A stretch of DNA of 64,000 bases from contig NFUW01000002.1 in the NCBI GenBank assembly GCA_002127285.1, positions 1,833,630 through 1,897,629 of the forward strand, read 5' to 3'. The translations under genes and the position numbers were made by a program. This stretch comes from Chitinophagaceae bacterium IBVUCB1. Its GTDB lineage: Bacteria > Bacteroidota > Bacteroidia > Chitinophagales > Chitinophagaceae. The notes beneath the pieces were generated by a model. That model was not told the origin of the DNA. It searched no databases and saw only the letters and a list, made by a program, of their open reading frames with translations. Below, piece after piece: positions 32,308 to 41,218 of the stretch (the stretch's first letter is position 1; every line of letters begins with the position of its first letter).

Positions 32308-32391
32308 GTTAATAACCGGTTAACGGGTTGCAAAACAGGGGTTAACAGGGTGCGAAAATCATGTGTAAGACTCTATACCATTGCATATTTG
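32308..32391 (+). promoter_or_regulatory. GTTAAC-box promoter module, copy A
   Basis: GTTAAT at 32308, GTTAAC at 32319-32324, GTTAAC at 32341-32346 and GCATATTTG at 32383-32391. The spacing between the two full boxes is 16 bases, and from the second box to the -7 element 36 bases. The transcript would start near ATCATCAAAC, giving a C/A-rich leader before the ATG at 32432. Confidence 0.75.
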
Positions 32392-32431
32392 TATCATCAA
32401 ACAACGCAAACAAGCATCAAACAAACAACAA

Positions 32432-32974
32432 ATGAAAAAGGTATTCATCGCATTGTTCATATTGGCTGCAGGGCTTAGTGCCCGGGCACAAGAGCCAAAC
32501 AGTGCAGCAAACCAAACAGCTAACCTGAATTTGACAAATGCAATTGACATAACATTTGCAGCCAACACCAGTGCAACGGGAGCAGCAATCAATTTCAGCT
32601 TTAATACTGTAAATGATTACGCTAACGGGTTGGAAAGTGCCCCTGTAGAGGTAAAAGTAAGGTCGAACAGAAGGTTCAATGTATCTGTAAAATCGAGCAG
32701 TGCATATTTTACATATTCCGGCGCTACCAGCCCTGCACCGCAAATGTATGTGGGTAATGTGCTCTACTTCAAAATGACACAAAACAATACGGGCGGATGG
32801 TCTTGGGTAAATAACAGGTATGACTATATAGACCATTATAACTGGACATTTTTGTATAACGGTGTGAACGGCGGCAACCAAAACTTTACGATAGTATATA
32901 GGGTAACGCCAGGGTTTACATTCCCCGCAGGTACATATACTACTGATGTGGTGTACACTGCAACCCAGCAATAA
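32432..32974 (+). CDS. Small secreted beta-rich protein, paralogue A
   Basis: The protein has 180 residues with a signal peptide (FIALFILAAGLSARAQ). The mature part is a predicted beta-sandwich with conserved stretches shared with the protein at 40664: FNTVNDYANG, VRSNRRF, NGGNQ, and the ending PAGTYT-DVVYTATQ. The last strand pattern recalls fimbrial or DUF4402-like secreted domains, but no family was recognised with certainty. Expression is predicted from the GTTAAC-box module upstream. A strong terminator follows, so it is monocistronic. Confidence 0.85.
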   Translation: MKKVFIALFILAAGLSARAQEPNSAANQTANLNLTNAIDITFAANTSATGAAINFSFNTVNDYANGLESAPVEVKVRSNRRFNVSVKSSSAYFTYSGATSPAPQMYVGNVLYFKMTQNNTGGWSWVNNRYDYIDHYNWTFLYNGVNGGNQNFTIVYRVTPGFTFPAGTYTTDVVYTATQQ

Positions 32975-32995
32975 TAAGTATGGCATAAGATATTG

Positions 32996-33030
32996 CGGTG
33001 CAGGCTTTGGAAGCCTGCACCGTTTTTTTT
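32996..33030 (+). terminator. Terminator of paralogue A
   Basis: CGGTGCAGGCTT and AAGCCTGCACCG form a 12-bp perfect stem with the loop TGG, then eight T. Confidence 0.92.
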
Positions 33031-33118
33031 AACATATATTATAGCAAAGCAATGCACGAAAACGATAGTATGACGAGTGGATTATTTATATTCGTACACT
33101 CAAAAAAATGGGCATACT

Positions 33119-34627
33119 ATGCTGAATAGGGTTATCTTATCAATTGTAGCTGTGCTGTTTGCTGTGAATGCGAATAGTCAGGTAGTAAGAATAGATTCTT
33201 TTGAATCTGCGGCTGCTAATACGGCATTATCTACCAACGGCATGATGGCATATGCATATAATATTTCTGAAAATGGTAGAGGCAAATCGGCTGTGCTTGA
33301 AATTTTGTTTTGCTACGCAGACTATTCTAATGTAAAAAAGCTGAAAATAGACATCAATAAGGGGTCAAAAGTATTGGCAAGCCAGTTTGGCGATGAGGGT
33401 TTTGCATTTTTACTGGGCGATGCTGCTCGTCAGACACGCAGTTTGTTGATGATAAACGCAGAAGGAGCCATATATCAACAATATACCGAGCAACAGGTAG
33501 CGGCGGCAGACCTTGCAAATAGTGATAATTATTACCTGTATAGTGGTATGGGTACTACTTATATGATTGCGCCTGTATATTCAAAAAATGGCTATCGTGC
33601 GGTGATATTTGACGGCGAACTGAAACCGTTGCAAGACAAAACTTATACCGGTAAAGCTGGCATGGAGGTGTTATCCGTTAAGCTAATGATGGATAGGCTG
33701 CTGATACTGCGAAAAGAAACACTGAATACTAAAGACAGAAAATATGAATATACTATACAACAACTACTGGGTAATATGCCCGAAATGGCAAGTATAACTG
33801 AGTTGAAAGATGAGCAAGACTATTGCTTCCCGATGTTTATAAACGGTAAAGATGGTATGGTATTTACTGCCGGGCTGTTTTATAAAAACGGAAAATATGA
33901 AGAAGGCAAGGCAGGAGGTATTATGGTGTTTCAGCTATCGCCCGACGGGAATATACAGCGTAAGATAAAGTTGCCTATGAGCAGGATAAACCAGTTTTTG
34001 CCGGATGCAACGATTGCTGCACTAACTAAAAATGCGCACCTTGCCGTTCAGGATGCATATTATGGTATGGGTGGTGGTAGTGTTGTGGTTGCTGAACTGT
34101 TGCATAAAACGCAGAAAGGGAAAGATGCCGTATTAAAAGTAGCCGATATGATGGTGCTGCATACTAATATGGAAGATGACTTGGCTAAACTACAGTTTGT
34201 AGAAAGAGCGCCCGAAACGAGTATTGCCATGAGCGGCACAGGTGCCGCCAATAATATACTGAACAACAGCGAGTGGCTGATGACACACAATTTGTATAAT
34301 TACAGATTTTCGATGATGCTGGTGGGACAACAACATATTTGTTATCAGGCTTCGGATACAAATCAGGTATCATCGAGCGTATGGCTGATACCTGCAGATA
34401 GTGCTATTGAGGCATTGGGGACAAGAATGCTGGTAAGTATGCTGCCAGACCCTAAGCGCCAAATGATGCGTAAGGCGCGTGTATCTGTAAATACCGAATC
34501 GCCAGATGATGCACGGAAAGCATTTTACCGATACTATGGTTTTTTACCAACACCTACCATGCAAATGTTTGTATACAATTACTCGACATCGGTACTGCAA
34601 TGGTCTATAGAACCGATAAGAAAGTGA
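33119..34627 (+). CDS. Secreted protein of unknown function
   Basis: This 502-residue protein has a signal peptide (LNRVILSIVAVLFAVNANSQ). No family is recognised. The mature part reads like a chain of beta strands with repeated G-[YF]-x-V-[IVL]-F patterns, which could be a propeller. The C-terminus ends without a T9SS sorting domain (MQMFVYNYSTSVLQWSIEPIRK). The start at 33119 places the signal peptide first. It has a terminator of its own and follows the paralogue A gene in the same direction. Confidence 0.7.
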   Translation: MLNRVILSIVAVLFAVNANSQVVRIDSFESAAANTALSTNGMMAYAYNISENGRGKSAVLEILFCYADYSNVKKLKIDINKGSKVLASQFGDEGFAFLLGDAARQTRSLLMINAEGAIYQQYTEQQVAAADLANSDNYYLYSGMGTTYMIAPVYSKNGYRAVIFDGELKPLQDKTYTGKAGMEVLSVKLMMDRLLILRKETLNTKDRKYEYTIQQLLGNMPEMASITELKDEQDYCFPMFINGKDGMVFTAGLFYKNGKYEEGKAGGIMVFQLSPDGNIQRKIKLPMSRINQFLPDATIAALTKNAHLAVQDAYYGMGGGSVVVAELLHKTQKGKDAVLKVADMMVLHTNMEDDLAKLQFVERAPETSIAMSGTGAANNILNNSEWLMTHNLYNYRFSMMLVGQQHICYQASDTNQVSSSVWLIPADSAIEALGTRMLVSMLPDPKRQMMRKARVSVNTESPDDARKAFYRYYGFLPTPTMQMFVYNYSTSVLQWSIEPIRK

Positions 34628-34640
34628 TATAAAAAGCAAG

Positions 34641-34670
34641 AAGCCACCAGGAATGGTGGCATTCTTTTTT
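34641..34670 (+). terminator. Terminator downstream of the 502-residue secreted protein
   Basis: GCCACC and GGTGGC pair over AGGAAT, followed by ATTCTTTTTT. Confidence 0.75.
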
Positions 34671-34830
34671 ATCAAACAAAACAAACGAGGTGGTTATATA
34701 TACCAGTAATTATATTGCGGTTGTAAACGGTATAAAATTAAGTATTGATAGCATACAATACAAAGATTGTATAAAAAAAGGAAGTATCGATTGTTGTATA
34801 TACAGTGATGGGTAGCGGTGATGATGAGCG

Positions 34831-35337
34831 TCACCTGTTTCTGAAGGTAAGTACCCAGTAACCTGCTTCATAATCGTCTGGTAATAAGGTGTATTCAAAG
34901 TTTTTTCCGGCAAAGCTGACGGGGCTACCCATGGTACTCGATGTCATTATGCGCTCTGGTGTAAGGGATGAACTGAATAAGAAGTTATAAATATTGGTAA
35001 CGACAGAAAGCTCTCCACTGATGCTTTGGTAGTTGACAACGGCTCTCTTGCCTCTACCTTCTTCATCGCCATCAGTCATATAAAAGCCATAGTCAACGCG
35101 CAGTGTTTCGTTTTTTTCGTTTTTATAGACATACCTCACAAAGTGGCGTTTTTCATTATCTACAAATGCCAATTTGTACCCCGGGGCAAATTCAACTATC
35201 TTTTCGGAAAAACGCTTTGCAATAATAACACTTGTATCCAACGCCAATACCCTGACAACCAGTGTCTCCTCTTCGGCCTGGCAGTATGCATTAGTGGCCA
35301 AACACATAGCTATAAGGAATACAAAAAGTTGCTTCAA
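34831..35337 (-). CDS. Small secreted protein of unknown function
   Basis: The protein has 168 residues with a signal peptide (KQLFVFLIAMCLATNAYCQ). The remainder has mixed strands and helices; no family is recognised and there is no sorting domain or lipobox. A stretch LAFVDNEKRHFVRYVYKNEKNETLRV suggests a compact beta-sheet. It lies alone between two secreted-protein genes. Confidence 0.6.
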   Translation of the reverse strand: MKQLFVFLIAMCLATNAYCQAEEETLVVRVLALDTSVIIAKRFSEKIVEFAPGYKLAFVDNEKRHFVRYVYKNEKNETLRVDYGFYMTDGDEEGRGKRAVVNYQSISGELSVVTNIYNFLFSSSLTPERIMTSSTMGSPVSFAGKNFEYTLLPDDYEAGYWVLTFRNR

Positions 35338-35391
35338 AATACGCTGTTGTTTAATGCTAAAGTATAAAAAAACTCATAAATGCACATCATT

Positions 35392-35422
35392 CAAAAGGGC
35401 TGGGATACTATCTGCCCTTTTG
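35392..35422 (-). terminator. Terminator of the 456-residue T9SS protein gene
   Basis: CAAAAGGGC and GCCCTTTTG form a 9-bp stem over a 13-base loop. Confidence 0.6.
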
Positions 35423-35448
35423 TAATCAATTGATAATTAATTGATTGG

Positions 35449-36819
35449 CTATTTCGAAATGCTGAATTGGCGTACCATTGACTGTCCGCTTGCTGTATTG
35501 GCGACAACCGTATAGTTGCCAGAAGCTATACCATCCAGCTGAACGGTGGCTTGTAATTGAGAACCACTCTGCTGCCATTGCCTGATGACAGCACCACTCA
35601 TACTACGGATGGTAAACATGACGGGCGATGTTTGTTGTTGGTTCAGATTGATATTGAGCACATTGGTAGCGGGTACAGGGTATAGTTGCATGCCAAAAGC
35701 ATCGTGCTGTGCATATGCAATGGATGTAGGTGCAAAGTATTCGTAGTAAAAACGCATTTGTGTATTACCGCTTTGAAGTGCCCATGACGCGGTGGCATTG
35801 TTCCAACTGCGGATGGTAATACTTTCTATGAGGTCTGCAGCATTGTATGTGCAGGTTTCAAATGTATGATTGATATAAGCGTTACCAGTCCATAATTGCA
35901 GTATTTCCGATGTTTTTTTATTCAGGCTATTGTATGCGTAGGTATGTTTTCCGTACAGTTTCCAACTACCTGCATCCCAATAATACTCTAGACTTTCGTC
36001 AATGTTTTTTTGATAATAAGTGTACTCAAACTTGCGGATGAAAACCCATCGGCTATTTATATTGTCCCATTGCTCCAATGTATAAGAGTCTACTTCATTG
36101 TCTGTATTGTAGGTATATGTTTTGCGTTCGTTATTATACAAATTGCCAGTACCGTGCTGAGATATCTGGTCTGTGATAGAGATGATATTGTTATTGGCAT
36201 CGTACATATATGTAGCACTATATGCGTTGGAACTGATGCTTACAACATTATTGCCTACATAGCTGAGGGTAGATGGCACGTTGTGAGACCATGTACCGCC
36301 AACCCATAGCTGAAAAAGAGATTCTTCAATTTTTTTAGTGCCAGCCATGTACTTGTACAAGTAACGGGCTGAGTCTTTCCATGCTTGTGTAGGAAGATGC
36401 CATATTGCATAGCGCAACGATGTTATTTTATTTTCAGCATCAAAAGTTTGCTTTCTGAAAAGCTTGTTATCGTAGATGGCTGATGAGTTGTTGTAGTAAT
36501 ATGTTACAGCATCATCAAACAAAAAAAGTTCGTCATAATTTGGTCTGTCAATATTAATCAAACCACTTCTGCCACCGCTGTATGCATACCTTACAGAGTC
36601 TGACGGGATGAACACGCCATTGCTAAACTTCAGGGCTACTTTTGCCACTACTCTATAGTTATTTACCGAGCCTGGTTTTTCGTTGCCGAATGTAGGGTCG
36701 AAATGCGGGAACCCACCACCACCTATTACCACGCCGGTAGTAAGGCCTTGCGGACCTTCGGCAGTATAAGCTGCTTTTGTAGTGCATAATGCTATTATGA
36801 AGAGTAATGCTTTTTTCAT
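35449..36819 (-). CDS. Secreted T9SS protein with Tyr/Asn-rich repeats
   Basis: The protein has 456 residues with a signal peptide (ALLFIIALCTTKAAYT). The middle contains repeats of a roughly 30-residue unit of the kind FEYTYYQKNID / YTYNTDNEVDSYTLEQW, reminiscent of the YD/RHS-like or DUF3836-type strand repeats of secreted Bacteroidota proteins. The C-terminus (LYPVPATNVLNINL to MVRQFSISK) is a T9SS type A sorting domain. Its role is probably extracellular; the ligand is unknown. Confidence 0.82.
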   Translation of the reverse strand: MKKALLFIIALCTTKAAYTAEGPQGLTTGVVIGGGGFPHFDPTFGNEKPGSVNNYRVVAKVALKFSNGVFIPSDSVRYAYSGGRSGLINIDRPNYDELFLFDDAVTYYYNNSSAIYDNKLFRKQTFDAENKITSLRYAIWHLPTQAWKDSARYLYKYMAGTKKIEESLFQLWVGGTWSHNVPSTLSYVGNNVVSISSNAYSATYMYDANNNIISITDQISQHGTGNLYNNERKTYTYNTDNEVDSYTLEQWDNINSRWVFIRKFEYTYYQKNIDESLEYYWDAGSWKLYGKHTYAYNSLNKKTSEILQLWTGNAYINHTFETCTYNAADLIESITIRSWNNATASWALQSGNTQMRFYYEYFAPTSIAYAQHDAFGMQLYPVPATNVLNINLNQQQTSPVMFTIRSMSGAVIRQWQQSGSQLQATVQLDGIASGNYTVVANTASGQSMVRQFSISK

Positions 36820-36897
36820 ATTAAATAGCTTTATGAATGGTTAATGTTTTTAATGTAGCCTCAAGTTCTGTAATAAATTTACACATATTATTTTATA

Positions 36898-36973
36898 AGA
36901 ATTGTCATATTTATATAGCGTGACAGATTTTTGACATATCTGTTACAATTACCACCATTTTTATGACAATTCT
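36898..36973. promoter_or_regulatory. Long inverted repeat, 12-base perfect arms
   Basis: AGAATTGTCATA at 36898-36909 and TATGACAATTCT at 36962-36973 are exact inverted copies 52 bases apart. Between them an 8-bp hairpin (TGACAGAT/ATCTGTTA, including one G-T pair) is nested. TGACA or its complement TGTCA occurs four times. It lies upstream of the 456-residue T9SS protein gene and just after the end of the next minus-strand gene. Confidence 0.6.
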
Positions 36974-36987
36974 GTCGTCAGACTATG

Positions 36988-37344
36988 CTATCTGTTTACC
37001 GTCAGTACTTCTTCCATCAAGCTATTCCCTTTGATGGTTATTTTGTATTTGCCGTTAGGCAGTTGAGTTACATCAAGGGCATATTGGTAGCTTTTTCGCG
37101 TGCCTACTTTTATCTCAGTCAGTTGTGTATTGTATTGCATATCGTAAACGATAATGCTGAATGGCTGTGCCTGTACCCAATCTACATATATGTTGGTGTA
37201 TGTTTTGGCCGGGTTGGGGTATAGCTTCAGGCTATTGGCTGTAGCCTGTTTGGTAGTTTTTATATTTTCTTTGGCTGCGGGTTGTGCCATTCCAATATGT
37301 GCCGCGAGCAATACCATGCATAATATGAGTAGGTGCTTGTACAT
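36988..37344 (-). CDS. Small secreted protein consisting of little more than a T9SS sorting domain
   Basis: The protein has 118 residues: a signal peptide (LLILCMVLLAAHIGMAQ), about 20 polar residues (PAAKENIKTTKQATANS), then a complete type A sorting domain from LKLYPNPAKTYTNIYV to LMEEVLTVNR. Normally this domain is attached to an enzyme or adhesin. Either the passenger was lost or this is a free sorting-domain peptide. No frameshifted remainder is visible upstream. Confidence 0.82.
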   Translation of the reverse strand: MYKHLLILCMVLLAAHIGMAQPAAKENIKTTKQATANSLKLYPNPAKTYTNIYVDWVQAQPFSIIVYDMQYNTQLTEIKVGTRKSYQYALDVTQLPNGKYKITIKGNSLMEEVLTVNR

Positions 37345-37448
37345 GTCTTTCTAAGTTTTAGTATTATAAATATACTAAGAAAAAGATAAGTACATGAAGA
37401 AGTAAGAATAGCCTCGAAATCCTTTGCTGTATTGGTTTTTATTACTCG

Positions 37449-37570
37449 GTTAACAAATGCTTTGTAAACAGGTGGTTAACCGTTTACAGTTTTTTTCGTT
37501 AACTGATTTTAAAGCTGCCGTTAACTGCACCTTATTATTTGGTAAAGGGTGTGCGCGCGATGCATCTTTG
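37449..37570 (+). promoter_or_regulatory. GTTAAC-box promoter module, copy C
   Basis: Four GTTAAC boxes at 37449, 37475, 37498 and 37520, and GCATCTTTG at 37562-37570. The last two boxes are 16 bases apart, and 36 bases separate the last box from the -7 element, exactly as in copies A and B. Confidence 0.75.
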
Positions 37571-37603
37571 TTTCATCAAAGCAAAAAATAAAAACACACA
37601 AAA

Positions 37604-37702
37604 ATGAAAAACACTGCACGCATCAATCAAGCTGAAGTTTCAAAGAAAATCATGTTGTTTGTATCTATCATCACCTGTGTGGTGTTGGCAGTGAATTTCT
37701 AA
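37604..37702 (+). CDS. 32-residue membrane peptide driven by the GTTAAC-box module
   Basis: This is a very short reading frame: an N-terminal polar part (KNTARINQAEVSKK) and one hydrophobic helix (IMLFVSIITCVVLAVNF). Support comes from its place: a conserved promoter module, an A/C-rich leader like those of the two secreted paralogues, an ATG at the same relative position, and a strong terminator right after the stop. No homologous peptide was recognised. It could instead be a small RNA whose coding frame is coincidental. Confidence 0.6.
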   Translation: MKNTARINQAEVSKKIMLFVSIITCVVLAVNF

Positions 37703-37755
37703 AAAAACAGAAAGTACCACCTTTGCGATTACAGGTTTGGTACTTTCTGTTTTTC
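37703..37755 (+). terminator. Terminator with 17-bp perfect stem after the micro-gene
   Basis: AAAAACAGAAAGTACCA (37703-37719) pairs without mismatch with its complement at 37738-37754. An inner CCT/AGG pairing can extend the stem. The T-run is part of the right arm. Confidence 0.85.
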
Positions 37756-37787
37756 AATCACGCTCTCTCTTATTCTTTATATGTAGC

Positions 37788-37809
37788 AAAGCCCCTGAAT
37801 AGGGGCTTT
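37788..37809. terminator. Hairpin downstream of terC
   Basis: AAAGCCCCT and AGGGGCTTT pair over GAAT. It lies nine bases past the TerC gene stop; the T-run is weak. Confidence 0.55.
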
Positions 37810-37817
37810 GTTATTGT

Positions 37818-38612
37818 TTATATACCATCTTTATAGTCCAGTTTGTCGGGGTCGGGTTCGTTCAGGGTAACGGTTTTTGATTTTTTGCCACGGCGCATAC
37901 GCATATTCAGCAACTCTACAGTAAATGAGAATGCCATAGCGAAGTACACATAGTTTTTCAGGTGCAGTTCGTGTGCGCGTTCGCTATCCCATCCTTCAAT
38001 TATCAGCACCACACCCACCAGTACGAGGAATGATAATGCCAGCATCTTGAGCGTAGGGTGCTTATGTATGAACGCTGCTATTTTGTGGCTGAACAGGAAC
38101 ATGATTATCATGGCTATGATAACGGCAATAATCATTACCTCTACATGCTTGGCAATACCAACGGCGGTTATCATACTATCGAAAGAGAAAATCATATCTA
38201 CCAGTATCATCTCGCCAATGGCGGCAGCAAAGCCTATTGATACACCATTCTTTTTGCCGTTCAGTTCTTCTTCTTCACCTTCCAGCTTGGCGTGTATTTC
38301 TTTCACGGTTTTGTATAGCAGAAACAAGCCACCACCCAGCATTACAAGGCTTGCGAGGTCGAAGCCCTTATCGAACAGTGTAAATAATGGTTTGCCTTTT
38401 TGCTGTACCAGCCAGCTAAGCCCCATCAGCAAAATGACACGAACGGATATACCGGTCAGCATCCATATACGGCGTGCAGCCAATTGTTTTTCTTTGGGCA
38501 GCCTGCCCATGATGATGGATACGAAAATCACATTGTCTATACCCAAAATCACTTCGAGTATGGCCAGTGTCAGCAGGCTGATAAGCCCATCTACGGTTAA
38601 TAATTCTTGCAT
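37818..38612 (-). CDS. TerC family integral membrane protein
   Basis: The protein has 264 residues and about seven helices. The family motifs are clear: LAILEVILGIDNVIFVSIIMGRLP (residues about 16-40) with the conserved Glu/Asp pair, and GEMILVDMIFSFDSMITAVGIAKH in the second half. TerC proteins are linked to metal (Mn2+) homeostasis, tellurite resistance and metalation of exported proteins. No yybP-ykoY type riboswitch is seen upstream. The C-terminus is short and lacks CBS domains. Confidence 0.93.
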   Translation of the reverse strand: MQELLTVDGLISLLTLAILEVILGIDNVIFVSIIMGRLPKEKQLAARRIWMLTGISVRVILLMGLSWLVQQKGKPLFTLFDKGFDLASLVMLGGGLFLLYKTVKEIHAKLEGEEEELNGKKNGVSIGFAAAIGEMILVDMIFSFDSMITAVGIAKHVEVMIIAVIIAMIIMFLFSHKIAAFIHKHPTLKMLALSFLVLVGVVLIIEGWDSERAHELHLKNYVYFAMAFSFTVELLNMRMRRGKKSKTVTLNEPDPDKLDYKDGI

Positions 38613-38617
38613 TGTAT

Positions 38618-39643
38618 TTATGAGATAAGTCCTTTACAAATATTAGATGCAGTAGCGGGGCCTTCGTACACAAAGCCTGTATATACCTGTACCAGTGATG
38701 CGCCTGCATCCAGTTTTTCTTTGGCATCGGCAGCGGTAAAAATGCCACCTACTGCTATAATGGGTATAGTGCCATTGCTCTTTTGGGTAATATAGCTAAT
38801 CACTTCAGTAGCCCTGCAACGCACAGGTGCGCCGCTAAGGCCCCCTGCGCCAATAGCTTCTACCGCAGCTTTATCGGTTGTAAGATTGCTGCGGTCTATA
38901 GTGGTATTGGTAGCTACCAAGCCCTGTATCTCCGTTTCCTTCACAATGTTGATGATGTCATCCAGTTGTTCATTGGTCAGGTCGGGGGCTATTTTTAGTA
39001 GCAATGGTTTGGGCGTGCCGAGCGATTTGTTGAGTTGCGTGAGCGTATGCAGTATATGCATCAGTGGTTCTTTGTCTTGCAGGGCACGCAGGCCAGGGGT
39101 GTTGGGGCTGCTCACGTTTACCACAAAATAATCTACAACATCGTACAGGTGTCGGAAACTGGCTTCGTAGTCTTTAATGGCATCTTCATTAGGGGTATCC
39201 TTGTTCTTGCCTATGTTGCCGCCTATTATCAGTTTTTCCTTACGGTGTTTCAGCCTTTCGGCAGCTATTTCAGAGCCTTCGTTGTTAAAGCCCATACGGT
39301 TGATGAGTGCCCTGTCGGCAGGCAGACGAAACAGACGTGGTTTGGGGTTGCCCGATTGGGGGCGGGGTGTAAGTGTGCCAATTTCTACAAAGCCAAAGCC
39401 TAGAGCAGCCAATGCATCGGTGTATTTGGCATCTTTATCGAAACCAGCCGCCAGCCCTACCGGATTGGGGAAAGTGATGCCCCAAAGTGTACGTTGCAGG
39501 CTTGGATGCTTAAAATGGTACATATTCTTCAGCAAGGCGCGCAGCGGGGTTATGTTATAAGCCCATTGCAGGCGTTTCATCACCATATAATGCACCTTTT
39601 CGGGGTCGATGCTAAATAGAATTTTGCGAATAATACCGTACAT
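38618..39643 (-). CDS. pyrD: Dihydroorotate dehydrogenase (quinone), class 2
   Basis: This 341-residue enzyme oxidises dihydroorotate to orotate in pyrimidine synthesis, passing electrons to quinone. The N-terminal membrane-associated helix (IIRKILFSIDPEKVHYMVMKRLQW) marks class 2. The core shows NPVGLAAGFDKDAKY, FVEIGTLTPRPQ, NVSSPNTPGLR with the catalytic Ser, and GAGGLSG. The start at 39643 is chosen because the promoter element TATCTTTG ends seven bases upstream; a longer frame to 39706 would lie outside the transcript. The next minus-strand gene, terC, follows after only five bases. Confidence 0.95.
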   Translation of the reverse strand: MYGIIRKILFSIDPEKVHYMVMKRLQWAYNITPLRALLKNMYHFKHPSLQRTLWGITFPNPVGLAAGFDKDAKYTDALAALGFGFVEIGTLTPRPQSGNPKPRLFRLPADRALINRMGFNNEGSEIAAERLKHRKEKLIIGGNIGKNKDTPNEDAIKDYEASFRHLYDVVDYFVVNVSSPNTPGLRALQDKEPLMHILHTLTQLNKSLGTPKPLLLKIAPDLTNEQLDDIINIVKETEIQGLVATNTTIDRSNLTTDKAAVEAIGAGGLSGAPVRCRATEVISYITQKSNGTIPIIAVGGIFTAADAKEKLDAGASLVQVYTGFVYEGPATASNICKGLIS

Positions 39644-39650
39644 GCGGGTG

Positions 39651-39658
39651 CAAAGATA
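39651..39658 (-). promoter_or_regulatory. Predicted -7 promoter element of pyrD
   Basis: The minus strand reads TATCTTTG, a full match, seven bases before the pyrD ATG. The transcript, probably pyrD-terC, is predicted to be leaderless. Confidence 0.55.
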
Positions 39659-39732
39659 CATTATGCCTGTTGTATGTTTTTTAACATTTTGTAACAATCC
39701 CCGCAACCTGCTGTGGCGTATCTTAGCGCATA

Positions 39733-40464
39733 ATGGGCCGTATTTTTACTCAGCTAAGTGTAGCAGGCATTTTGTTTGTCTGGATAGCCAGTAGTGTGGC
39801 ATACGGCCAGACCATGCAGGGGCAGCTTACTGACTATGAAGGAAATAAGGCCGTACCCGAAGTTATCATTACCAATATACATACCAACGAAATTACTACC
39901 AGCGACAAGGATGGCAAGTTTTCGATAGCTGCAAACAGCGGGCAATTGCTGGAGTTTAAAAAAGACGGTTATAAAGTAGTACGCTTCAGAGTGCCGCAAG
40001 GGAATATGGCATCTTTTTATAAAGTAGGGATGCAACGCTACAATCCATCCGTACCGCAATTTGAAAACATGGCATCGCCCGATTATAAAACCGATAGCCT
40101 GAAGTATGCCATGCTGTATAAAAAAGAACTGGAGTTTCAGCAAATGACTACACTGCAAGCCATACAGCATCCGTTCTCTGCGCTCAGCAAACGCAGCAGG
40201 CAGATATGGGCCTTCCAGCAGGAGTATGCCATGTTTCAGGAGCAGAAGTATATTGACTATACCTTTAACGACAACCTGATAACATCGCTGACGGGACTTG
40301 CAGGCGATAGCCTGCGCGTGTATAAGCAAATCTTCCGCCCATCGTACACACAATTGCGCAGTATGGATGAGTATAACTACTTTAACTACATCAAACGCAC
40401 AGTAGCCGCATACAGAAAGCGTGGTACTAAAGCGCGTACATCTCCTGTTCGTATTTCGCACTAA
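39733..40464 (+). CDS. Secreted protein with carboxypeptidase-regulatory-like domain
   Basis: The protein has 243 residues. After a signal peptide (GRIFTQLSVAGILFVWIASSVAYGQ) comes a CarboxypepD_reg-like beta-sandwich (residues about 27-105: MQGQLTDYEGNKAVPEVIITNI ... TSDKDGKFSIAANSGQ, LLEFKKDGYKVVRF). The rest is an Arg/Tyr-rich helical tail of unknown function. This module often begins TonB-dependent receptors, but no receptor follows here. A near-consensus promoter (TATCTTAG) stands six bases before the ATG. Confidence 0.75.
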   Translation: MGRIFTQLSVAGILFVWIASSVAYGQTMQGQLTDYEGNKAVPEVIITNIHTNEITTSDKDGKFSIAANSGQLLEFKKDGYKVVRFRVPQGNMASFYKVGMQRYNPSVPQFENMASPDYKTDSLKYAMLYKKELEFQQMTTLQAIQHPFSALSKRSRQIWAFQQEYAMFQEQKYIDYTFNDNLITSLTGLAGDSLRVYKQIFRPSYTQLRSMDEYNYFNYIKRTVAAYRKRGTKARTSPVRISH

Positions 40465-40520
40465 TTATTGATTTCCAATAGTTTAATAGCCAATTCCTTT
40501 GCTACGGGCATTTTATGCTT

Positions 40521-40604
40521 GTTAATCCGTCGTTAACCGCTTGCTAAAACGGGGTTAACAAGCCCCGATTTTTTGGCTATCGGGGGCTGATGATAGCATC
40601 TTTG
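40521..40604 (+). promoter_or_regulatory. GTTAAC-box promoter module, copy B
   Basis: GTTAAT at 40521, GTTAAC at 40532-40537, GTTAAC at 40554-40559 and GCATCTTTG at 40596-40604. Spacings (16 and 36 bases) are identical to copies A and C. The upstream GTTAAT is five bases before the first box, as in copy A. Confidence 0.78.
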
Positions 40605-40663: not shown

Positions 40664-41218
40664 ATGAAAAAGATCGTATTATTCGCCGTTATCCTTACTT
40701 GCATCAATGTAGCTGTTAAGGCACAAGCTCCTTCTTCTACTGCTACACAGACAGTTAATCTGAACCTTAGCAACGCAATCGAATTGACATTCACTGGGTC
40801 TGGTACTGCTACAGGTGCTGCTGTTAACTTAGCTTTCAATACAGTAAACGACTACGCTAACGGTGTAGCATCATCTGAACAAACACTGCGTGTGCGTTCT
40901 AACCGCCGTTTCGGTGTAACGGTTCGTACCAACAACGCTAACTTTACTTATACAGGTGCTGTAACTCCTGCTCCGGTAATGCCTGTAAGCGGTGTATTGA
41001 GCCTAAGGGTTGGTGGTAACACAACAGGTGGAACTATCGCTTCACCATTCAGCAATACTGCATATAGCGGCCTTAGTGCTACAGCAGCTAATCTGATAAC
41101 GAATGCTGCAAATGGTGGCAACCAAACATTCGGTGTGCTTTATCAAGCTACTCCCGGCTTTGCTTACCCCGCTGGTACTTATACGGTAGATGTGGTTTAT
41201 ACCGCTACACAGCTGTAA
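40664..41218 (+). CDS. Small secreted beta-rich protein, paralogue B
   Basis: The protein has 184 residues with a signal peptide (IVLFAVILTCINVAVKAQ). It shares with the protein at 32432 the motifs NLNL-NAI, ATGAA, FNTVNDYANG, VRSNRRF, FTY-GA, PAP-M, NGGNQ-F and PAGTYT-DVVYTATQ. Codon use is unlike its neighbours: many GCT, ACT and CGT codons suggest strong expression. It is probably a structural surface or secreted protein in large amounts. The terminator that follows has 18-bp perfect arms. The family is unknown. Confidence 0.88.
   Translation: MKKIVLFAVILTCINVAVKAQAPSSTATQTVNLNLSNAIELTFTGSGTATGAAVNLAFNTVNDYANGVASSEQTLRVRSNRRFGVTVRTNNANFTYTGAVTPAPVMPVSGVLSLRVGGNTTGGTIASPFSNTAYSGLSATAANLITNAANGGNQTFGVLYQATPGFAYPAGTYTVDVVYTATQL

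Follow-up and report, generated by a model that had tools for sequence, protein, structure and literature searches.

The DNA unit recognized by ArcA, a regulator of the OmpR/PhoB family in Escherichia coli, is rich in GTTA, and the PHO boxes of PhoB/PhoP read TTAACA-N5-TTAACA in Bacillus. ArcA sites are described as direct-repeat elements 11 bp apart from centre to centre, to which most sites add between one and three further elements, predominantly spaced by about 11 or 22 bp; these sites vary in number, spacing and place, and repression is among the reported outcomes (PMC3798270). For CtrA, a regulator of the same class in the alphaproteobacteria, the consensus is given as TTAA-N7-TTAA (PMC9437464), and CtrA is described as activating the pilin gene pilA (PMC11264516). 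In the Bacteroidota, the sigma-A promoter is described as a TTTG at -33 followed by TAnnTTTG at -7 (PMC7366714, PMC2483708, PMC9723704), with the -33 element characterized as not essential. Here we analyse a stretch of 64,000 nucleotides (the window; C2:1833630-1897629, C2 being contig NFUW01000002.1) from the 3.41-Mb, two-contig genome of Chitinophagaceae bacterium IBVUCB1 (G000), in which three promoters share a module of GTTAAC boxes. These three promoters belong to a set of about 30 in this bacterium, and their module, although new as a regulon element, is of an already known architectural type and has a coherent surface theme. Judged from the sequence, we consider it probable that the set constitutes a genus-level regulon for surface structures, run by an OmpR/PhoB-class regulator on an ordinary sigma-A promoter.

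An initial annotation of the window had reported one rigid module, GTTAAC-N16-GTTAAC-N36-GCAT[A/C]TTTG, common to the three promoters, and this pattern is indeed present exactly at window positions 32319, 37498 and 40532, with its spacing confirmed both in the window and genome-wide. The window holds three exact GTTAAC-N16-GTTAAC pairs, and six matches when up to two mismatches are allowed (3.5 expected). Across the genome, the exact pair occurs at 17 places against 0.32 expected, so that the module clearly exceeds the chance level that the annotation had named as the refuting outcome, and the shorter pattern GTTAA-N17-GTTAA gives 53 strand hits, compared with 9 for the reversed pattern. GTTAAC pairs with 0 to 30 bases between them are found at 30 places (19 for the reversed-pattern control), with start-to-start spacings of 22 bp in 17 pairs, 11 bp in six and 33 bp in one, the remainder being spaced by 23 bp (three), 26 bp (two) and 24 bp (one). 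Assuming uniform spacing and ignoring promoter duplicates, the probability of at least 24 of the 30 pairs falling on multiples of 11 is about 1.5e-19. Direct repeats of about 11 bp, as expected for an OmpR/PhoB-class regulator, are thus evident from the 24 pairs at 11, 22 or 33 bp, as they are from the lag-11 test described below. The 17 pairs spaced by 22 bp were collected without regard to promoters, and 15 of them have, in one orientation, an AnnTTTG whose first base comes 65 or 66 bases after that of the distal box, the two without it lying at C2:330479, which reads TACATTCG, and C2:1187675; the octamer [C/T]AN[A/C]TTTG has a chance of about 0.0004 per position. A profile (R1) built from 20 sites of the genome, preselected for both boxes, matches it 33 times at E ≤ 0.01 and 45 times at E ≤ 1, the multi-genome search having used stricter filters than this one. 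The pair spacings and the AnnTTTG distance are the unbiased tests of spacing, since the distances within the alignment were each picked as the best fit over a few bases and hence lean to the expected value.

The alignment covers 70 of 74 inspected sites (29 of the best 30 in this genome and 41 of 44 from 15 relatives), the loci L087, L160, L164 and L173 having been dropped as they hold no -7 part. It shows that the two boxes of the initial annotation, which had overlooked a degenerate unit between them, form the second and fourth units (units 2 and 4) in a tandem array. The array consists of up to four head-to-tail units of 11 bp with the consensus of about TTGTTAACCGC. Counted from the first GTTAAC of the initial annotation, they lie at -11, 0, +11 and +22, and the one at +11 is degraded to TTGC[A/T]AA. 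The register of the sites is about TTTGTTAAYNG-CTCGTTAACCG-CTTGCAAANCG-GGGTTAAC, followed by 12 bases, TTTG (-33), 21 bases and CAT[A/C]TTTG (-7). Of the 70 sites, which come from 16 genomes, 38 form a non-redundant set (less than 75% alike over the 51-bp array region), and for these the column similarity at lag 11 is 0.18 against -0.004 ± 0.028 after permutation of the columns, a value reached by none of 5,000 permutations; p is 0.11 at lag 10, which is not significant, and 0.02 at lag 12, a weak signal. Part of the signal at lag 22 stems from the search pattern itself; lag 11 is absent from the seed pattern, although the profile that fetched the later sites does cover units 1 and 3. All 38 sites have AA in unit 3, preceded by TT in 29, while unit 1 has AA in 30 and the preceding TT in 27, in the same orientation. 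The head-to-tail layout follows from these two units, since GTTAAC is a palindrome and units 2 and 4 are uninformative in this respect. Four loci (L088, L091, L093 and L094) stand in another register and blur units 1 to 3 in the alignment.

Downstream of the array, the distance from the start of the proximal box to the C of CATnTTTG is 43 bases in 51 of the 70 sites, 42 in 18 and 44 in one. The octamer CAT[A/C]TTTG itself is found in 58 sites and TATATTTG in one, and the -33 TTTG is present at 90% or more in the 20-site alignment. GCATmTTTG is not peculiar to the module: it resembles the -7 element that Bacteroidota promoters ordinarily have and agrees with TAnnTTTG except for the first letter of that element, which at most sites is C instead of T. 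This C may render the promoter weak and dependent on an activator and, together with an array ending 12 bp upstream of -33, it fits an activator-dependent promoter. According to the mechanism that we envisage, an OmpR/PhoB-class response regulator would bind adjacent units along a single face of the DNA, probably in the form of two tandem dimers, and would contact RNA polymerase from its position 12 bp upstream of -33. A dimeric activator, as proposed in the initial annotation, could read the four 11-bp units pairwise, as two dimers; the annotation's notion that direct repeats upstream of -33 would suit one common regulator is supported.

Comparison with the described systems points in the same direction. 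Like ArcA sites, the module consists of 11-bp direct repeats with extra units at 11 or 22 bp; unlike them, its array is nearly fixed relative to the promoter and is probably activating. GTTAAC-N5-GTTAAC includes the CtrA consensus TTAA-N7-TTAA, although the module has up to four units rather than two, belongs to another phylum and is followed by another type of promoter. Since both of these regulators are of the OmpR/PhoB class, a regulator of this type is the most likely one here. The PHO boxes share several 11-bp direct repeats and the TTAAC core with the module, whose genes do not resemble a phosphate set; for PhoP-box-type TTAACA direct repeats, no matching paper was found in the open-access literature. 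Nor did that literature yield a description of a GTTAAC direct-repeat regulon in Bacteroidetes, and none of the Flavipsychrobacter papers listed there concerns regulation by its title. The statement of the initial annotation that no regulon with this layout has been described thus holds for the combination, within the open-access literature searched, and not for the repeat layout, which is that of ArcA and CtrA.

All three copies in the window lie on the forward strand. Copy A has its array at 32308-32346, with GTTAAT at 32308, GTTAAC at 32319, the degenerate GCAAAA at 32330 and GTTAAC at 32341, and its -7 element GCATATTTG at 32383-32391 (consensus as given in PMC7366714 and PMC2483708); the -33 position reads TCAT. 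It precedes a gene (32432-32974) for a secreted protein of 180 amino acids, predicted to be a pilin-like beta-sandwich. The array of copy B (37449-37525) has GTTAAC at 37449, 37475, 37498 and 37520 and the degenerate TTAAAG at 37509, the -11 unit being absent, and is followed by TTTG (-33) at 37538-37541, the -7 element GCATCTTTG at 37562-37570 and a gene (37604-37702) for a membrane peptide of 32 residues, from a family of 20-32-residue peptides ending in AVN[F/L/I]. Copy C (array 40521-40559) has GTTAAT at 40521, GTTAAC at 40532, the degenerate GCTAAA at 40543 and GTTAAC at 40554, a -33 TTTG at 40572-40575, which sits within the inverted repeat CCCCGAT-N9-ATCGGGG (40563-40585), and GCATCTTTG as its -7 element at 40596-40604; its gene (40664-41218) encodes a secreted protein of 184 amino acids, a member of a 17-copy family and again a predicted pilin-like beta-sandwich. 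The initial annotation, which is partly supported overall, had rightly described these genes as two paralogous secreted proteins and a 32-residue membrane peptide. It had also seen the extra boxes, with their labels swapped: the GTTAAT at 32308 and 40521 belongs to the copies at 32319 and 40532, and the two further GTTAAC boxes at 37449 and 37475 to the copy at 37498, not to that at 40532. It had further missed a difference at -33, where TTTG is found in copies B and C and is absent from A.

The architecture, spacing, number and distribution of the modules and the genes adjoining them can be read directly from the genomes. We inspected the genes downstream of the best 30 sites (E 4.7e-24 to 4.6e-4), of which 14 precede members of one paralogous secreted family, five precede membrane peptides of 20-32 residues and three precede PID-CTERM loci, namely C2:28906 and C2:337795, each with an exosortase gene behind, and C2:333728, where the sorting protein is present and no exosortase follows. 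Of the other eight, two precede similar proteins of 94-95 residues, and six stand singly before a protein of 1040 residues that carries a type IX sorting tail, one of 89 residues with an R3H match below threshold, a membrane protein of 57 residues, a lipoprotein-like protein, a reading frame of 28 residues and tandem hairpins in an RNA-like stretch. Both parts of a PID-CTERM/exosortase system, the sorting signal and the exosortase, are found: NF046080 is above cut-off in two of four small proteins, at 24.2 bits against 26 in another and weak in the fourth, while PF09721 is above cut-off in both exosortases, for which XrtX is the best NCBIfam match, below cut-off. The membrane peptides are probably translated, as suggested by the final 17 codons in six different copies (three from this genome and three from G014, with the peptides of L081 and L088 outside the set), where differences by codon position number 70, 0 and 120, and 88 codon differences are synonymous and 53 non-synonymous. 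From this arrangement we infer that one regulator, by activation rather than repression, would jointly switch on 14 of the 17 members of the pilin-like secreted family, the five tiny peptides, the three PID-CTERM loci, two of them with an XrtX-like exosortase, and several other small genes.

The secreted family matches no Pfam or NCBIfam family above cut-off, and a sequence search against solved structures gave no convincing match. AlphaFold2 models of the copy C and copy A proteins have a mean pLDDT of 85.6 and 84.0 and are beta-sandwiches with an unordered N-terminus, the pLDDT being below 50 for residues 1-21 and 1-23, respectively, and low in the next stretch too, a span that covers the signal peptide and beyond, where a chaperone-usher pilin would have its free donor strand. 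Among the 50 Foldseek matches listed for the two models, pilins and further subunits of fibres are in the majority, with CFA/I, CS17, type 1, P and Csu pilus subunits, the TasA fibre and Pyrodictium cannulae among the top ones; the first match of copy C is 9ikj, a cryo-EM structure titled TLP-1a, and lower matches include glycoside hydrolase 123 and adaptin domains. With TM-scores of at most 0.56 and five (copy C) and one (copy A) matches at E ≤ 0.001, the models allow the proteins to be called pilin-like and no more; their predicted fold may resemble that of chaperone-usher pilins, and the proteins might form fibres. In this genome the family has 17 members (16 places are listed, and the 17th is taken to be the gene of L094). 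Two of them, C2:1473894 and C2:1474649 (L071), encode proteins that are identical after about the first 23 residues and differ in their signal peptides, a pattern that looks like recent gene conversion.

Within the genus, the number of modules follows the size of the secreted family. At E ≤ 0.01, 11 of 14 congeners have 31, 32, 27, 31, 29, 31, 26, 27, 24, 27 and 27 module matches, and the other three have nine (G013), six (G001, 84% complete) and one (G003). The 12 module-rich members of the genus (24-33 modules each) have 13-28 copies of the family, compared with four copies and nine modules in G013, four and six in G001, and none and one in G003, where the sole module match has no gene of these families behind it. 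Among 44 genomes outside the genus, 38 have no module match and five have one, and G034, from another genus of the family Chitinophagaceae, has 19 together with 21 family matches, several of which are fragments at contig ends. The array of G034 keeps the same periodicity with a changed sequence, as seen with CTTAACGACTTGTTACGCGCTTACAAAACCCGTGTTAAG in L395. In G013, three of the four family genes have a module directly upstream. Elsewhere, the family has four copies in G030 and one each in G015 and G032, and none in the remaining genomes; the profile found no module directly upstream of the G015 and G032 loci, and the family is thus wider than the module. In some relatives module sites recur every 0.4 to 3.1 kb (G014:C10:278746-279650, G002:C12:122490-127545 and G008:C26:117716-122793), and the G014 locus L172 contains three peptide genes.

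The genome encodes six OmpR-type and eight LytTR regulators. In a comparison covering 70 of 75 hits (the five left out all from G015), three of the six OmpR-type genes are matched by a counterpart in each of the six module-bearing relatives compared. Two are without an orthologue in the module-poor G003, namely C1:504447-505139 (49% at best) and C2:490741 (43%). The latter has an orthologue in G004 alone (91%) among ten relatives compared and, since almost every module-rich genome lacks it, cannot be the regulator of the set. The former has orthologues of at least 74% in all 13 other congeners, is followed by a sensor kinase gene and resembles metal-responsive regulators, below the family cut-off; gene distribution points weakly to it as the best candidate. 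The recognition helix proved of no use as a discriminator, the same or a similar one being found in module-free genomes (the helix tree was made without the G034 sequence). For one regulator of this genome, the best match is at 94% in CP075895.1 (Chitinophagaceae bacterium LGM1). Relatives of the query regulator were also met at 84% and 57% on the contigs L291 (JANLJF010000112.1, labelled Azovibrio) and L363 (CAJCIQ010000088.1, labelled Beijerinckiaceae), which are probably misbinned.

Several observations weigh against the regulon as we propose it. Six module-free genomes have relatives of C1:504447-505139 that are 58-68% identical and whose recognition helix is equal or similar, which is why this gene is pointed to only weakly, and the copy in G034 is at 61% only; C1:1035489 and C1:741624, present in six of six module-bearing relatives, are present in G003 and in module-free genomes as well. 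None of the 14 OmpR- and LytTR-type genes lies within 2 kb of a listed module site, a result that also rules out autoregulation as a pointer to the regulator. Units 1 and 2 vary among the sites, and unit 1 is absent from the peptide promoters. A module is directly upstream of four of nine tested G034 loci, and none was found in the 1.5-kb flanks of the four distant family members of G030, which represents the other genus with several copies of the family and has one weak profile match somewhere in its genome (E 0.0013). In IBVUCB1 itself, three of the 17 family members (C2:1474649, 1475403 and 1476157) have no module and share another upstream sequence. Their common block, about ACTACTAACATTAGTGAT...GTATGTTTGCACTATCA at C2:1474480-1476160 (L036:4480-6160), suggests a second promoter class with a CTAACATTAG palindrome. 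The odds that we assign to the regulon rest on the array and not on the candidate regulator.

How else could the array be read? The initial annotation had pointed to LytTR-type proteins, and a member of that family, which has eight genes in this genome, one of them about 6 kb from a module-driven exosortase locus (C2:35261), might bind the two strong boxes as a direct repeat, the 22 bp between units 2 and 4 agreeing with the 21-22 bp usual for such sites. The letters, however, do not fit: the LytTR half-site consensus is matched at eight or more of nine positions in only 1, 0, 0 and 3 of the 38 sites at units 1 to 4, and LytTR binding would not predict that a third unit is conserved in 11-bp phase. 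The promoter-proximal repeats of AgrA are described as centred at about -60 (PMC4227749), much as here, and both systems have a pair of direct repeats, separated by about two turns, on the upstream side of the promoter; the module departs from the AgrA repeats in its half-site letters and its 11-bp third unit. No LytTR gene tracks the module either, each having either a match of at least 61% in G003 or none above 39% in G034, in a comparison of 50 of 65 hits (one fragment was not recovered, and those left out include three in G003 and one in G034). With letters that misfit and no tracking gene in the part compared, we reject a LytTR regulator as the explanation and consider it unlikely. A different cooperative binder of direct repeats, BldC-like or AraC-type, or a silencer that represses the whole set, would also account for a repeat array, BldC being described to form cooperative multimers on direct repeats (PMC5859096), and activation and repression cannot be separated by sequence alone. 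Against this stand the 11-bp spacing of ArcA and the TTAA-N7-TTAA of CtrA, both of the OmpR/PhoB class, and the position of the units upstream of -33, a common place for activators, and we give this explanation a small chance.

One could also suppose that there is no regulon at all and that a single cassette of gene and promoter has been duplicated many times, given that 14 of the 30 sites precede one paralogous family and that several promoters are nearly identical over 100 bp. The other 16 sites, however, precede seemingly unrelated genes, and the boxes, their spacing and the -7 element are kept more than the intervening letters. The 38 sites that are less than 75% alike over the array still keep the pattern, and G034, of another genus, shows this periodic array with different letters. 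At least eight kinds of gene, seemingly unrelated when judged by eye and by family searches, stand behind the 30 sites, so that gene duplication alone is insufficient; the duplicated cassette is largely refuted and in our judgement very improbable. A transposed repeat or iteron array was rejected as well, the sites being scattered, oriented with the genes and tied to the -7 element.

One motif here links a large and scattered family of fibre-like secreted proteins, tiny peptides and exosortase loci that lack a clear function by family searches, and provides each of these gene groups with a testable context, such as a surface coat or attachment. To our knowledge, few regulons of Bacteroidota with a defined upstream activator array are known outside Bacteroides and Flavobacterium, and the rigid, easily mutated promoter offers a handle for finding the regulator. 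One could further speculate, though we consider it doubtful, that one response regulator on the four-unit array drives up to 28 scattered donor-strand fibre subunits along with membrane peptides and PID-CTERM exosortase loci, and that these constitute a new fibre system of the Chitinophagaceae, the genes of which would then be united by a common promoter module in place of an operon.

Some further features accompany the modules. Behind the module at C2:1408248 there is no clear reading frame but a row of about nine hairpin-like repeats of the CCAACCCCGTAAGGTTGG type, mostly one per 31-33 bases (L077:1663-2051, about C2:1408410-1408800), after which come a second module and a gene of the secreted family; single copies similar to these repeats occur in other leaders (L084, L036). 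A stretch like TCTCTCTTATCCTCTATATGTAA, followed by a terminator-like hairpin, lies 3' of the tiny peptides (window 37755-37840, L076, L082, L088 and L172), also in another species. At L085 (C2:1502522), a reading frame that by eye resembles an ECF sigma factor diverges from the module of the 57-residue membrane protein.

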